Part shown: positions 2,827 to 53,124 of the stretch, piece after piece | Numbering within the stretch: the first letter of the stretch is position 1 | Layout of the letters: the number at the start of each line of letters is the position of its first letter | IMG/VR virus record: IMGVR_UViG_3300024265_000041 | Coordinates: 20,256 to 84,255 of that record | Strand: one strand, 5' to 3' | Length of the DNA: 64,000 nucleotides | Source: a virus | Notes under the pieces: model-generated | What the model was told of the DNA's origin: nothing | What the model saw: the letters and a program-made list of their open reading frames with translations, nothing else | Databases searched by the model: none | Translations under genes and position numbers: made by a program

Positions 2827-3461
2827 GCAGAGGATTATCTGGGGCTTTATTAACTCATTTTTCAGCAGATCATATCATTTCTATTGTGCTAATAGAGTTG
2901 AGTTTTGATAGTGGAACTCAAAGATATCACACAGGGATAGGAGATATTACCTATAGGACTTTTACCTACGTCGGTATTGGCACGCTAGGACAAATAGAAC
3001 CAATACTTGAAGACCAGGGTATAAAAATGAAAGGAGTAAGAGTAGCTCTCCAGGGGGTTGATACAACCGTAATAGATTTAACTAGTAATGAAGATATTCA
3101 AGGTAGGGCAGCTAGAATTGATGTGGCAGCTTATGACTATGAAACTGCAACTATTATTGACGGGTTTGAAATTTTTTCAGGGACTATGGATACCTCTGAA
3201 ATTACTAGAGGTGAAAATGCTTCTTTGGTTTTAACTTTAGAGTCTATAATGTCTCAATTCGATCTTCCAAACGTAAGAAGATTTACCGATGAAGATCACA
3301 AGACAAGACATCCTAATGACGAATTTTTTTCCTTATTAGTTACTATAAATGAGCAACAAATTGTTTGGGGGGCACAACAAGATGATACTAGTGGGGTCCC
3401 AGGGGGAGGGGGAGGTAGAGGGGGAAGATCAGATCAGCATAATCAAAGAGAGTTTAGATAA
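2823..3461 (+). CDS. Minor tail protein, lambda gpL-like position
   Basis: 212 residues, starting at an ATGA overlap with the preceding stop. The N-terminus (LIELSFDSGTQRYHTG...YRTFTYVGIGTLGQIEP) and the pattern of short beta strands match the phage minor tail family described as DUF2163-like or gpL-like, which sits between the distal tail and the hub. The C-terminus is a Gly/Arg-rich tail (PGGGGGRGGRSD). The order relative to the NlpC/P60-like and J-like genes downstream supports a tail tip role. The exact family is not certain. Confidence 0.6.
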   Translation: MSRGLSGALLTHFSADHIISIVLIELSFDSGTQRYHTGIGDITYRTFTYVGIGTLGQIEPILEDQGIKMKGVRVALQGVDTTVIDLTSNEDIQGRAARIDVAAYDYETATIIDGFEIFSGTMDTSEITRGENASLVLTLESIMSQFDLPNVRRFTDEDHKTRHPNDEFFSLLVTINEQQIVWGAQQDDTSGVPGGGGGRGGRSDQHNQREFR

Positions 3462-17505: not shown

Positions 17506-20301
17506 ATGGCTACTGCAATAACCTATATAAAGTCAGTTACACAATCAGGAAGTGATTCTGATGTTTCTACCCTGAACATTAACGTGCCTGCAGGAAGTGG
17601 CGCTTGTTTGGTAGTTTCTATAGCGGCAAAAGACACTAACATAACTGTCAATAGCGTGGTATTCAACGGAAGCGAAACCTTTGATGAAGTAGGAGTTTCT
17701 AGAAACGGTAACGCTAGTTCTTTTTTATATATATTGAAATCCCCCTCAATAGATCTAACCGCAGATGTAGTTATTACAATGAGCGATTCCTCAAGACTAG
17801 TGACTGGGGTTTCTCTCTATAATGGCGTTGACCCAAATAGCCCATTCAACGTAAGTTTTAACGCCCAATCTAACGGCACTGACAACAACCCAAGCCTACA
17901 AGTTACCCCTGACGACGGTAATTGGTATGTCGATAGTTTGTGTCAAGTTTCAGCAGGGCCAGACACTATAGACACCCATTCTCCAGGCACCTTAGTAACC
18001 AATCAAGCAGCCATAGGTGGAGGTACAGACACTAGGGTAGGATCCATGTACTTTGCTTGTGACGGTACTCAAGTTAGCGCTAGTTACGGTATGTCTGGGT
18101 CTGATAACTGGGCTCTCCAAGCTACTGCTTTACGGGTACCTCAGGTAGCTAACCAAACAGTTTCAACTAACTCAGCATTTGATGCCGATACTATAGAATC
18201 TCTTACTCAGAGTTCTAACATAAATATAGCTGTTGCCCAAGTTTTTGAGACTAATCTTGCACAGCCGATTACTCTAGACAATGGGGCTCAAGGGGTCAAT
18301 GTATTCCAGGTCACAGAAACTAATTTATCTCAAACCATTACTCCCTCAACTGGTAACGTAAACATAACTGTTTCTCAGTCCACTGAAAGTGATGCTTCCC
18401 AATCTGTAACAGCATTTTCTTCTATACCTATAACGGTAACTCAGGTCACAGAATCTAATTTAGCTCAGGTGATAACTCCGGTTGTTGGGAATACAAACAT
18501 TACAGTGTCCCAGATATCAGAAACAGATTTATCTAGAACTCTTACTATTTCAGCTGGGAACGTGAATGTGTCTTTGGCTCAATCTGTTGAGACTGACACT
18601 TCACAAATAGTAATCCCAGTCCAATCAACTAATGTTTCTGTTCTACAGGTTACTGAAACAGATTTATCTCAAATCATTACTCCATTAGCTGGCAATGTTG
18701 ATGTAACTTTAAACCAAAATTCTGAAACAGATTTATCTCAAACACTCACCCCATTAGCTGGCAATGTTGATGTAACTTTAAATCAGATTTCTGAAACAGA
18801 TTTATCTCAGGTTATTATTCCTATTCAATCAACTGTTGTTGCTGTTAGTCAAAGTTCTGAAACAAATTCATCTCAAATCATTACTCCATTAGCTGGAAAT
18901 GTTGATGTAACTTTAAACCAGATTTCTGAAACAGATTTATCTCAAACCCTCACCCCACTAGCTGGTAATGTTGATGTAACTTTAAACCAGATTTCTGAAA
19001 CAGATTTATCTCAAACCCTCACCCCATTAACTGGTAATGTTGATGTAACTTTAAATCAGAATTTTGAGACAGATTTATCTCAGGTTATTATTCCTATTCA
19101 ATCAATTGTTGTTGCGGTTAGTCAAAGTTCTGAAACAGATTTATCTCAAACCCTCACCCCACTAGCTGGTAATGTTGATGTAACTTTAAACCAGATTTCT
19201 GAAACAGATTTATCTCAACCCCTCACCCCTACTAGTAACATTAATATTTCTGTTGGTCAGGTTTTAGAAATAGATTTATCTCAGGATATTATCCCACTTG
19301 CTGGTAGCGTTGGTGTCACTTTAAGTCAGATTTCTGAAACTGATTTATCTCAAATCATTACTCCATTAGCTGGTAATGTTGATGTAACTTTAACCCAGAA
19401 TTTTGAAACAGATTTATCTCAGATTATTACCCCTACTCAATCAACTGTTGTTGCTGTTATCCAGGTTTCTGAAACTGACTTATCTCAGGTTATTAACCCA
19501 TTTGAAGGTAATGTTGATGTTACTTTAAATCAGATTTCTGAAACAGATTTATCTCAAACTTTCACCTCCACTAGTAGCATTAATATTTCTGTTGGTCAGG
19601 GTTTAGAGACAGATTTATCTCAAACCTTCACCCCACTAGCTGGGAATGTTGATGTAATTTTAAATCAGGTGTCTGAAACAGATTTATCTCAACCCCTCAC
19701 CCTACTTGCTGGTAATATTGATATAGGTTTAAATCAGGTGTCTGAAACAGATACGTCACAGATTATTAACCCAACCCAATCATCTTTTGTTCCCCTTAAT
19801 CAAATTACTGAAACAGATTTATCTCACGTTATTAACCCACTAGCTGGGAATGTTGATGTAATTTTAAATCAGGTGTCTGAAACAGATACGTCACAGATTG
19901 TTACCCAGGTAAATAACATTGACCTTTCTGTTGGGCAGGTCTCAGAATCAAATTCATCTCAAATAATTACACCATCTGCTGGCAATGTCGATATCTCTGT
20001 AACTCAGGTTGTCGAGGTTGACACTTCTAAGGCTATAGGAGTTTCAGCAGATGGGGTTATATCTGCTAATCAGGTTTTCGAGACAGATTTAGCCCAGCCA
20101 ATAACAGTGGTGGTAGGTGGAATTAACATAAATGTTAACTTAGTCAATGAGATCGATTTGTCACAAGTAGTAACAGTTATACCTAGCAATATCCTTGCTG
20201 TAGGTCAGGCTTTAGAAGTAGAACTAGCTCAACCTATATCTCCTCTTATTTCAAGCTCTAGTCTGTTATATTATCAGACTATAATTAGATTAATGAGATA
20301 A
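17506..20301 (+). CDS. 931-residue protein with about 30 tandem 22-residue repeats
   Basis: Residues ~1-212 form a beta-rich non-repeated domain. From ~225 to ~912 the protein is an array of about 30 units, mostly 22 residues, with consensus near GNVDVTLNQISETDLSQTIT plus PLA. Hand counting gives 30 units, with SETDLSQ best kept. Central units are almost identical in DNA as well as protein, with a ~66-base period at ~18700-19250, pointing to recent duplication. The C-terminal 15 residues (SSSLLYYQTIIRLMR) break the pattern. Similar E-T-D-x-A/S-Q repeats occur in other phage proteins; a surface filament or stalk is likely, but the role is unproven. Position after the three paralogues suggests it belongs with them. 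Confidence 0.75.
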   Translation: MATAITYIKSVTQSGSDSDVSTLNINVPAGSGACLVVSIAAKDTNITVNSVVFNGSETFDEVGVSRNGNASSFLYILKSPSIDLTADVVITMSDSSRLVTGVSLYNGVDPNSPFNVSFNAQSNGTDNNPSLQVTPDDGNWYVDSLCQVSAGPDTIDTHSPGTLVTNQAAIGGGTDTRVGSMYFACDGTQVSASYGMSGSDNWALQATALRVPQVANQTVSTNSAFDADTIESLTQSSNINIAVAQVFETNLAQPITLDNGAQGVNVFQVTETNLSQTITPSTGNVNITVSQSTESDASQSVTAFSSIPITVTQVTESNLAQVITPVVGNTNITVSQISETDLSRTLTISAGNVNVSLAQSVETDTSQIVIPVQSTNVSVLQVTETDLSQIITPLAGNVDVTLNQNSETDLSQTLTPLAGNVDVTLNQISETDLSQVIIPIQSTVVAVSQSSETNSSQIITPLAGNVDVTLNQISETDLSQTLTPLAGNVDVTLNQISETDLSQTLTPLTGNVDVTLNQNFETDLSQVIIPIQSIVVAVSQSSETDLSQTLTPLAGNVDVTLNQISETDLSQPLTPTSNINISVGQVLEIDLSQDIIPLAGSVGVTLSQISETDLSQIITPLAGNVDVTLTQNFETDLSQIITPTQSTVVAVIQVSETDLSQVINPFEGNVDVTLNQISETDLSQTFTSTSSINISVGQGLETDLSQTFTPLAGNVDVILNQVSETDLSQPLTLLAGNIDIGLNQVSETDTSQIINPTQSSFVPLNQITETDLSHVINPLAGNVDVILNQVSETDTSQIVTQVNNIDLSVGQVSESNSSQIITPSAGNVDISVTQVVEVDTSKAIGVSADGVISANQVFETDLAQPITVVVGGININVNLVNEIDLSQVVTVIPSNILAVGQALEVELAQPISPLISSSSLLYYQTIIRLMR
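18640..19940 (+). repeat. Tandem ~66-bp repeats coding for the 22-residue units
   Basis: Within the 931-residue gene, copies such as AATGTTGATGTAACTTTAAA and TCTGAAACAGATTTATCTCA recur at ~66-base spacing. The repeats are in frame, so copy number can change without a frameshift. Confidence 0.8.
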
Positions 20302-52007: not shown

Positions 52008-52084
52008 TGGTCGGGGCAACAGGATTCGAACCTGCGACAACTCGCATCCAAGGCGAGGACTCTACCAAACTGAGCTACACCCCG
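52008..52084 (-). tRNA. tRNA-Pro (anticodon UGG), CCA encoded
   Basis: 77 nt, minus strand. Acceptor CGGGGTG / TGCCCCG (two wobble pairs), D-arm GCTC-GAGT, anticodon stem CTCGC / GCGAG with loop CTTGGAT (anticodon TGG), T-arm GCAGG-TTCGAAT-CCTGT, discriminator A and encoded CCA. It reads codon CCA and possibly others, likely helping translation where phage codon use differs from the host. Confidence 0.93.
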
Positions 52085-52090
52085 TACTAT

Positions 52091-52663
52091 TTATTCCTCT
52101 TCTGCTTTATCTGCGCGAGCGTTAGCAGCGTCGTTCGAGTATTTAAGCCCTTCATACCGCTTAGATAATTTCTCCACGTTATGCTCAAGTGTTTCCTGGC
52201 GGGTGATGCCTAAACCCTGACGAATACCCGCCATGTAAAACTCCAAATCACCAAGTTCTTCTTTGGCATTTTCTCGGTCTAGATCTTTACCATAGATTAC
52301 AAACTTTTTAACCGCTTCTGACAGCTCCCCTGCCTCCCCGACAATCCCAGTAGCCATGTGCCAAACATGGGCTTTCTTTGGGGTTAGTTCAGCAATGATA
52401 TCTTCCCCCTTCTTACAAAGCGCCTTTACCATTTCTGAATGTACTATTTTCTTTTTAAAATCATTTGAATCTAGCTTACCCACTTCCTTTTTTGTTAAAC
52501 TTAAAATCTGGCTACGGAGAGACGCTATTTTGATTCTGCATTTCCTACTTGACAATGGAAGTACCCTAGTACACTCTGCACAGATCGTCTCCCCGTCCAT
52601 AAAAGTTGGCATTACCCCTTCCTCGCCACAATAATCACATTCTTTAATTGGTGCATCACTCAT
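52091..52663 (-). CDS. MazG-like nucleotide pyrophosphohydrolase with N-terminal zinc ribbon
   Basis: 190 residues from the ATG at 52663 (GGAGG at good spacing; an earlier ATG at 52666 and a GTG at 52675 are less well placed). The N-terminus CDYCGEEG...ETICAECTRV is a four-Cys zinc ribbon. The C-terminal half has MazG hallmarks: GIVGEAGELSEAVKK (E-x2-E) and ENAKEELGDLEFY (E-x3-D). MazG-family enzymes hydrolyse NTPs to NMPs and may lower alarmone levels. It lies in the RNA-rich locus between tRNA-Pro and the structured RNAs. Confidence 0.8.
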   Translation of the reverse strand: MSDAPIKECDYCGEEGVMPTFMDGETICAECTRVLPLSSRKCRIKIASLRSQILSLTKKEVGKLDSNDFKKKIVHSEMVKALCKKGEDIIAELTPKKAHVWHMATGIVGEAGELSEAVKKFVIYGKDLDRENAKEELGDLEFYMAGIRQGLGITRQETLEHNVEKLSKRYEGLKYSNDAANARADKAEEE

Positions 52664-52680
52664 CATTACCTCCACTTTAA

Positions 52681-52778
52681 GAAATTTACATACGGAGTAG
52701 GTCGGATCCCTCTACAGGAATAAGGTTCGCGCTGACGAGGCGCTAATCCGATCCACTTCCTATATAAACTTAAATTTC
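52681..52778 (-). ncRNA. Large structured RNA element (3-way junction type), unassigned
   Basis: Outer stem GAAATTTA (52778-52771) / TAAATTTC (52688-52681), an internal loop, then a long inner stem GGA(A)GTGG(A)TCGGAT (52760-52746) / ATCCGACCTACTCC (52707-52694) with one bulge and one A-C mismatch. Inside are two small hairpins: GCGC-CTCGTCA-GCGC and CCTT-loop-GAGG. It lies between the GAC-like RNA and the MazG-like start. It could be a second small RNA or a 5' leader control element of the MazG gene. No known RNA family was recognised. Confidence 0.5.
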
Positions 52779-52784
52779 TCTAAC

Positions 52785-52865
52785 TAAGTATAGGCAACTA
52801 GTGAACTGTTACGCTTTCTTTAAAGGATGGCTGTCTCTAAGCCTACCTCTTAGCTCCCATACTTA
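52785..52865 (-). ncRNA. Standalone mimic of the 23S rRNA GTPase-associated centre (helices 42-44)
   Basis: Read on the minus strand, positions 52854-52797 align without a gap to the 58-nt E. coli 23S segment 1051-1108 (the L11/thiostrepton domain), with about 48 of 58 bases the same against the E. coli sequence as I recall it. Key bases A1067 and A1095 are kept. C1053-G1106 becomes U-A and U1058-A1080 becomes G-C, both compensatory. Position 1061 is A, as in the stabilised form used for structure work. A private clamp helix TAAGTATGGG (52865-52856) / CCTATACTTA (52794-52785) closes it, replacing the rRNA context. It is likely a stable RNA cut from the operon transcript and may bind L11. Confidence 0.8.
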
Positions 52866-52869
52866 ACTC

Positions 52870-53124
52870 TCAGATATCTTGATCTCTTTCACGCTTTCCT
52901 ACTATAGTCCCAGCCAACATCTCTATGATTCTACCTGTCGCCATTACTAGAAACTTTTTCCCACTCTCGTCCTGCATTTGAATGTCGACTGTAGGTAGCC
53001 CGTTTATTGTGCCCTTGCCTACAATAACGCATTTCTTAATAACAAGTAAGGTAGTTTTATTTCCATACTTTTGAGCCTCTTCCGGGTAGTCAACAATCTC
53101 CACCTTAAAATTACGGGTTTGCAT
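52870..53124 (-). CDS. Unknown 84-residue protein upstream of the GAC-like RNA
   Basis: Beta-rich protein (VEIVDYPEEAQKYGNKTTLL, VIVGKGTINGLPTVDIQMQD). Its stop lies five bases before the clamp helix of the GAC-like RNA, so they share a transcript unless an internal promoter exists. No family recognised. Confidence 0.5.
   Translation of the reverse strand: MQTRNFKVEIVDYPEEAQKYGNKTTLLVIKKCVIVGKGTINGLPTVDIQMQDESGKKFLVMATGRIIEMLAGTIVGKRERDQDI

Follow-up and report, generated by a model that had tools for sequence, protein, structure and literature searches.

A phage-encoded copy of the 23S rRNA GTPase-associated centre and a widespread phage RNA family that conserves its tertiary fold

Introduction

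Known viral genes for translation include those for tRNAs, tmRNA and a few ribosomal proteins; for a selected piece of an rRNA functional centre, we found no report. Among structured noncoding RNAs that occur in phages, and in other places, are the large ornate RNAs GOLLD and ROOL, and to our knowledge no core of the GTPase-associated centre (GAC) has been described for either. The L10 leader (RF00557) is a ribosomal protein mRNA leader that mimics rRNA. The GAC RNA domain has long been used as a model of RNA folding and is a thiopeptide target; uL10 and bL12 attach at the base of its helix H42, and RelA activation by deacylated tRNA needs uL11. Phage-encoded ribosomal proteins include bS21, bL9, bL12 and others (PMC6375957), the 58-nt GAC region folds autonomously and is the L11 site (PMC4409310), and 1072·[1092-1099] is a known base triple of the domain (PMC8614978).

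Here we report a GAC copy in a 64,000-nt stretch of viral DNA (the window; positions 20,256 to 84,255 of IMG/VR record IMGVR_UViG_3300024265_000041, which has 84,255 bases). A first-pass annotation of the window, made from the letters alone, had pointed to such a copy and knew of no described phage RNA of this kind. We likewise found none in Rfam 15 or in the literature searched, whose scope left preprints and subscription papers mostly outside, so an earlier description is possible. A comparative jumbo-phage paper and the XacN1 genome paper do not mention rRNA.

Results

A free-standing GAC copy in the window

The features of the locus are as follows.
52797..52854, minus strand: GAC core (H42 tip, H43, H44), without insert; ungapped 58-nt alignment and LSU covariance match
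52856..52868, minus strand: 5' arm of the non-rRNA closing helix; 13-bp helix, shuffle test, MFE fold
52782..52794, minus strand: 3' arm of the non-rRNA closing helix; 13-bp helix, shuffle test, MFE fold
52676..52776, minus strand: second structured element, next downstream of the GAC element and within its intergenic region; fold z-score -3.69
52008..52084, minus strand: tRNA-Pro (UGG); ARAGORN and Rfam

The GAC core, read from 52854 to 52797 on the minus strand, is the equivalent of E. coli 23S positions 1051-1108 over 58 nt with no gaps. The identity, which the first-pass annotation had put at about 48/58 for this same alignment, is exactly 48/58 (10 differing positions). That annotation had also suggested a search with a bacterial LSU covariance model, and in a cmscan of 52650-52900, LSU_rRNA_bacteria matched at 52870-52769 (minus strand) with 43.7 bits and E=2.8e-12, a value that rules out a chance match. 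The Rfam gathering score of this model is 50, so the match is unlisted in the whole-window scan at that threshold, where tRNA was the sole family of Rfam 15 to match.

We found H43 and H44 in place, with both A1067 and A1095 kept as the annotation had said, and A1084, A1085, A1088, U1060 and the pair U1082-A1086 retained as well; the bases for the tertiary pairs U1060·A1088 and 1082-1086 are therefore present. The triple 1072·[1092-1099] is C·[C-G], and the triple 1071·[1091-1100] is A1071·[G1091·U1100], compared with G1071·[G1091-C1100] in 23S rRNA. The MFE fold sets this GAC layout atop a long closing helix. The helix stands just outside the core, where an arbitrary sequence replaces the base of H42; it was seen earlier as a 10-bp helix unrelated to rRNA, and it spans 13 bp including G-U pairs. 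A helix as good as this one arose in 28/200,000 flank shuffles and in 4/63,850 other 58-nt blocks of the window.

The GAC element lies among same-strand phage genes, namely a MazG-domain gene, thymidylate synthase, Dam methylase, an ATP-dependent ligase, a topoisomerase-like protein and a family A polymerase, whose relatives were found among phages of Vibrio and Pseudomonas. The tRNA-Pro gene shares this strand and follows some 700 nt further downstream, with the MazG-domain gene between it and the core. A 23S gene or an assembly contamination was ruled out for the window: homology ends at the domain, phage genes flank it on both sides and there is no further 23S sequence, and the true 23S pieces that we met in two other records (L150 from IMG/VR and L185) differ in look from this locus. 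Hence, the window element is confirmed as a free-standing, phage-encoded copy of the 23S GTPase-associated centre.

The second structured element (52676-52776) could be part of the GAC RNA or of a separate one. It had no Rfam match up to E=1 and no similar sequence among the fetched loci, and for lack of similarity it was rejected as kin of the inserts described below. Promoter and terminator scans of the GAC region gave scores no better than shuffles.

A GAC RNA family in phages of many hosts

The first blastn of phage records gave matches in XacN1, pf16, GAP32, CBB, UNO-G1W1 and Astolliot, all at unannotated places and several inside tRNA arrays. Further cultured carriers found by blastn were Milchi, Aeromonas phage 4_4572, Serratia phage BF, six Erwinia SNUABM phages, Kaldavass, XbC2, XaC1 and Acinetobacter phage ME3; for 4_4572 and ME3 the sequences were inspected directly, beyond the blastn match. 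In total, 19 named cultured phages carry a matching RNA, including Pseudomonas phage pf16 and Cronobacter phage GAP32. Scanning IMG/VR with patterns for one half or the other yielded 51 contigs in one scan, at least 120 in another and 74 in a third. With both halves paired, there were 93 distinct elements from the first sets and 158 across all fetched loci. A set of 84,980 bacterial and archaeal genomes gave nine pattern matches, six of them with both halves, and neighbouring proteins matched phage protein families at all three of these six that were checked. Records contaminated by true 23S were excluded, among them several GenBank phage records (e.g. L011, and MZ092003, i.e. Paenibacillus phage Pd_22F, our L185) and L150 from IMG/VR; these GenBank entries and other short 'phage' records are true bacterial 23S, apparently through contamination or assembly error.

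Rfam 15 has no family for the phage GAC RNA, and 11 related loci matched only tRNA or tmRNA at the gathering cut-off. A relaxed Rfam search of the pf16 and GAP32 elements gave weak LSU matches over the GAC part only and no other rRNA in the inserts.

The family keeps H43 (of the GGCUUAGAAGCAGCC type) and the H44 loop (of the GCGUAAYAGC or GUGUAAYAAC type). An insert separates 1090 from 1091. It ranges from 25 to 623 nt with a median of 159, although the largest lengths could come from wrongly paired halves; a separate covarying helix (columns 55-70 and 56-69) closes it, and UUUG comes next. Position 1101 is A in place of U1101 of 23S, and where 23S has the base of H42 the family has a covarying helix whose sequence is arbitrary. 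The inserts are mostly unrelated, falling into 58 clusters among 93 elements, the largest of which holds 20/93 and has the recurrent submotif GGCACCCCG..GGUAAGGC.

This motif, in the form GGCACCCCG(GAGA/GAAA/UAAC)..GGUAAGGC with a GNRA- or UMAC-like loop, is in the 3' part of the insert (e.g. L005, L009, L030, L036 and L056). In GAP32 (L006), the insert has a hairpin loop, ACGGGCGG, at about 3150-3170 of the locus, and CBB (L007) has it at the same place. The loop is complementary to CCGCCCGU, a sequence of the 16S decoding region; this complementarity may be chance.

The family conserves the GAC tertiary fold

We measured covariation in 85 family sequences that are less than 85% identical. 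The strongest signals came from the column pairs that the GAC fold predicts: 1058-1080, 1054-1105, those of the closing helix and the insert helix, and the tertiary pair 1082-1086, which varies as U-A/C-G/A-U. The ME3 element hinted that the triple 1072·[1092-1099] changes as a unit, and this prediction was then tested by a new scan that sought U1092-A1099 with 1072 left free in the pattern and returned 58 distinct two-half elements. We found that 1072 is U in 58/58 of these and C in 100/100 elements with C1092-G1099 (87/87 at an earlier count, before that set grew), with no mixed case; shared ancestry inflates the simple probability of this statistic, and both forms span very diverse sequences and inserts.

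The scan patterns fix bases of the 3' half and so impose part of the conservation seen in that half; the first scan fixed parts of the 5' half too, and the other two left the 5' half free up to eight mismatches. Within the 5' half, U1060, G1071, A1077, A1084 and A1088 are conserved at 92-100% (G1071 at 99%), U1060 and A1088 being almost invariant, whereas position 1061 is open and A1067 is relaxed (72% A, 23% G). Since the secondary pairs, the tertiary pair 1082-1086 and the triple 1072·[1092-1099] all covary, the sequences indicate that the L11-binding tertiary fold of the family is under selection. The relaxation of A1067, an exposed base, suggests that the L11-binding core is under stronger selection than the A1067 contact. 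In addition, with the base of H42 replaced by an arbitrary helix, the site of uL10 and bL12 is probably not kept.

Genomic context of the family

Where the fetched stretch contains a tRNA, the family element always matches the strand of the nearest one (66/66), at a median distance of 24 nt; the remaining 27/93 have no tRNA there. A tRNA lies within 150 nt of 45/66 elements, compared with 39% of random places in the same tRNA-dense loci. Hence, the closeness to tRNAs is only modestly above expectation. tmRNA accompanies the GAC RNA and tRNAs in three loci (L019, L037 and L134).

A search of 44 phage records for a uL11 gene returned none. A bL12-like domain was over the cut-off in 5/44 GAC-RNA phage records, with L182, L183 and L184 among the matches. 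In the annotated loci viewed, no stalk protein gene follows the GAC RNA and no adjacent protein-coding gene is held in common, the sister phages GAP32 and CBB excepted.

Origin of the window copy

The nearest gammaproteobacterial 23S found (L161) is identical to the window GAC core at 52/58 positions. The six substitutions are G1055A, U1061A, A1070G, G1071A, U1097C and C1100U. G1055A breaks the pair 1055-1104, and the changes at 1071 and 1100 fall in a single base triple, 1071·[1091-1100]. U1061A agrees with the A reported at 1061 by the first-pass annotation; 30% of the insert family has A at this position too. The annotation had further singled out double changes at 1053-1106 and 1058-1080. 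These are real relative to E. coli, but L161 and other gammaproteobacterial 23S already have them, so they were inherited from host-type 23S and were rejected as evidence of selection on the window copy.

The window copy has A1089 A1090 and U1101, like gammaproteobacterial 23S, in place of the G1089 U1090 and A1101 of the family, and it has none of the family's helix-closed insert after 1090 with its following UUUG. These three features (no insert, A1089 A1090, U1101) rule out a plain member of the insert family. Uninserted GAC forms in the three IMG/VR scans were true 23S contaminant only, and blastn of the window element against phage records gave true 23S pieces at 83-88% over 59 nt, with E down to 3e-12. 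Because it has no insert and is closer to gammaproteobacterial 23S than to the family, the window copy is probably a separate capture, going by its sequence, with the same architecture. A 23S comparison within the phylum of one genome (G008) gave no matches and carries no information.

We found no orthologue of the window locus with the MazG protein as query, tblastn of the upstream ORF or megablast of 24 kb. The function of the window copy is judged from its architecture and from the family.

Discussion

A standalone phage copy of the GAC, as first annotated, is borne out, and the family that keeps the tertiary fold adds support to it, although the window copy is not a typical member of that family. 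Among the functions first suggested, titration of L11 fits best. The parts that make the uL11-binding fold are kept, the base of H42 is not, A1067 is relaxed and no uL11 gene turned up in 44 phage records; taken together, these point to the capture of host uL11. We give an even chance to the reading that these noncoding RNAs, folded as the GAC, are a sponge for host uL11 and perhaps blunt RelA activation. The RNA, which we infer to be transcribed and processed, would fold into the GAC tertiary structure and present the uL11 binding site off the ribosome. Host uL11, newly made or exchanging, would be captured by it, and part of the ribosome pool would then work without uL11. Activities that depend on uL11 would be blunted, with possible effects on translation factors and above all on the response of RelA to deacylated tRNA, since a sudden supply of phage tRNAs might otherwise trigger RelA; the family RNA is often encoded with such tRNAs. 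Given that RelA needs uL11 and that phage tRNAs are frequent neighbours of the RNA, the most economical purpose would be to blunt the stringent response. We also put forward, tentatively and with more doubt than belief, a broader form of this proposal, in which a widespread, old RNA family in phages of several bacterial groups would capture uL11 and set a relaxed translation unresponsive to RelA while tRNA arrays are expressed, the window copy being a second, independent invention.

Several points count against a uL11 sponge. The window copy lacks the 1055-1104 pair, has two changed bases in the triple 1071·[1091-1100] and gave no orthologue in our searches. Infected cells may contain little unbound uL11, in which case the sponge RNA would have to be abundant. 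The proposal gives no role to the large, variable inserts, and tRNA arrays also collect translation-related genes of any purpose, with 27/93 elements having no tRNA in the fetched stretch. The main rival is a decoy against host defence, in which the GAC mimic would bind a nuclease, toxin or modifying enzyme that attacks or docks at the GAC, much as phage tRNA arrays substitute for cleaved tRNAs or compete them out. We know of no defence factor that targets the GAC, and it is the L11-binding core that is conserved, not the exposed A1067 of the loop, which is relaxed; we regard such a decoy as unlikely. The RNA does occur in phages of many hosts, its large and fast-changing inserts (58 clusters among 93) suit an arms race, and it often sits within tRNA arrays, which earlier work ties to overcoming defences that cleave tRNAs (PMC7824862).

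The inserts would gain a role if the GAC held uL11 while the insert, or the second hairpin in the window, bound another factor, phage RNA or protein, for example bringing ribosomes or stalk proteins to phage transcripts. The submotif that recurs in the largest insert cluster (20/93) and the bL12-like domain in some carrier phages (5/44) are in keeping with such a scaffold or regulator, but inserts mostly unrelated between phages and the want of a common adjacent protein-coding gene in the annotated loci viewed, save in GAP32/CBB, make it distinctly improbable. For the window copy alone, a functionless, recently captured piece of host 23S would account for its nearness to gammaproteobacterial 23S (52/58), its six substitutions from L161, one of which breaks a pair, and the lack of orthologues found; yet the limits of the piece are those of the autonomous domain, chance seldom yields a closing helix as good as its 13-bp one, and it has the overall architecture of the conserved family, so we see very little chance of this. 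Least credible of all is a spare ribosome part that would act in trans within the 50S subunit in place of a damaged GAC. Isolated GAC RNA does fold alone and is the L11 site (PMC4409310), but this use is disfavoured because the H44 inserts of the family, from about 25 to several hundred nt, are hard to fit into the subunit and an unrelated helix stands where the base of H42 would connect the domain to the ribosome.

A wide phage family with a kept fold suggests that phages act on the host translation machinery through RNA. If uL11 binding holds true, the RNA would be a phage handle on the stringent response and translation factors, and a natural in vivo tool for the GAC RNA domain. The family is present in cultured phages (such as pf16 and GAP32), so these ideas are directly testable.

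Like GOLLD and ROOL, the phage GAC RNA is a structured noncoding RNA occurring in phages, but 11 of its loci scanned with Rfam have no match to either. It resembles leaders of the L10 type in being an off-ribosome RNA mimic of the site of a stalk-base protein; unlike them, it has no Rfam leader match and no stalk protein gene after it in the annotated loci viewed. With phage ribosomal proteins, whose bL12 belongs to the same stalk, it shares its nature as a ribosome-derived viral gene, but it is RNA and not protein, and the 44 phage records have no gene for uL11. Phage tRNA arrays and tmRNA are also phage-made copies of translation RNAs, and the family is often in or beside such arrays; the GAC RNA, however, is not a tRNA and derives from a functional centre of the ribosome. 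Closest is the bacterial 23S GAC itself (H42-H44; RF02541 about 1071-1177), which it matches in sequence and secondary structure, in the key tertiary pairs and the triple, in A1095 and, for most elements, in A1067. In contrast to the 23S GAC, it is a standalone phage gene in which an arbitrary closing helix replaces the base of H42, and the family alone departs further through its insert between 1090 and 1091, the change of U1101 to A and a relaxed A1067.
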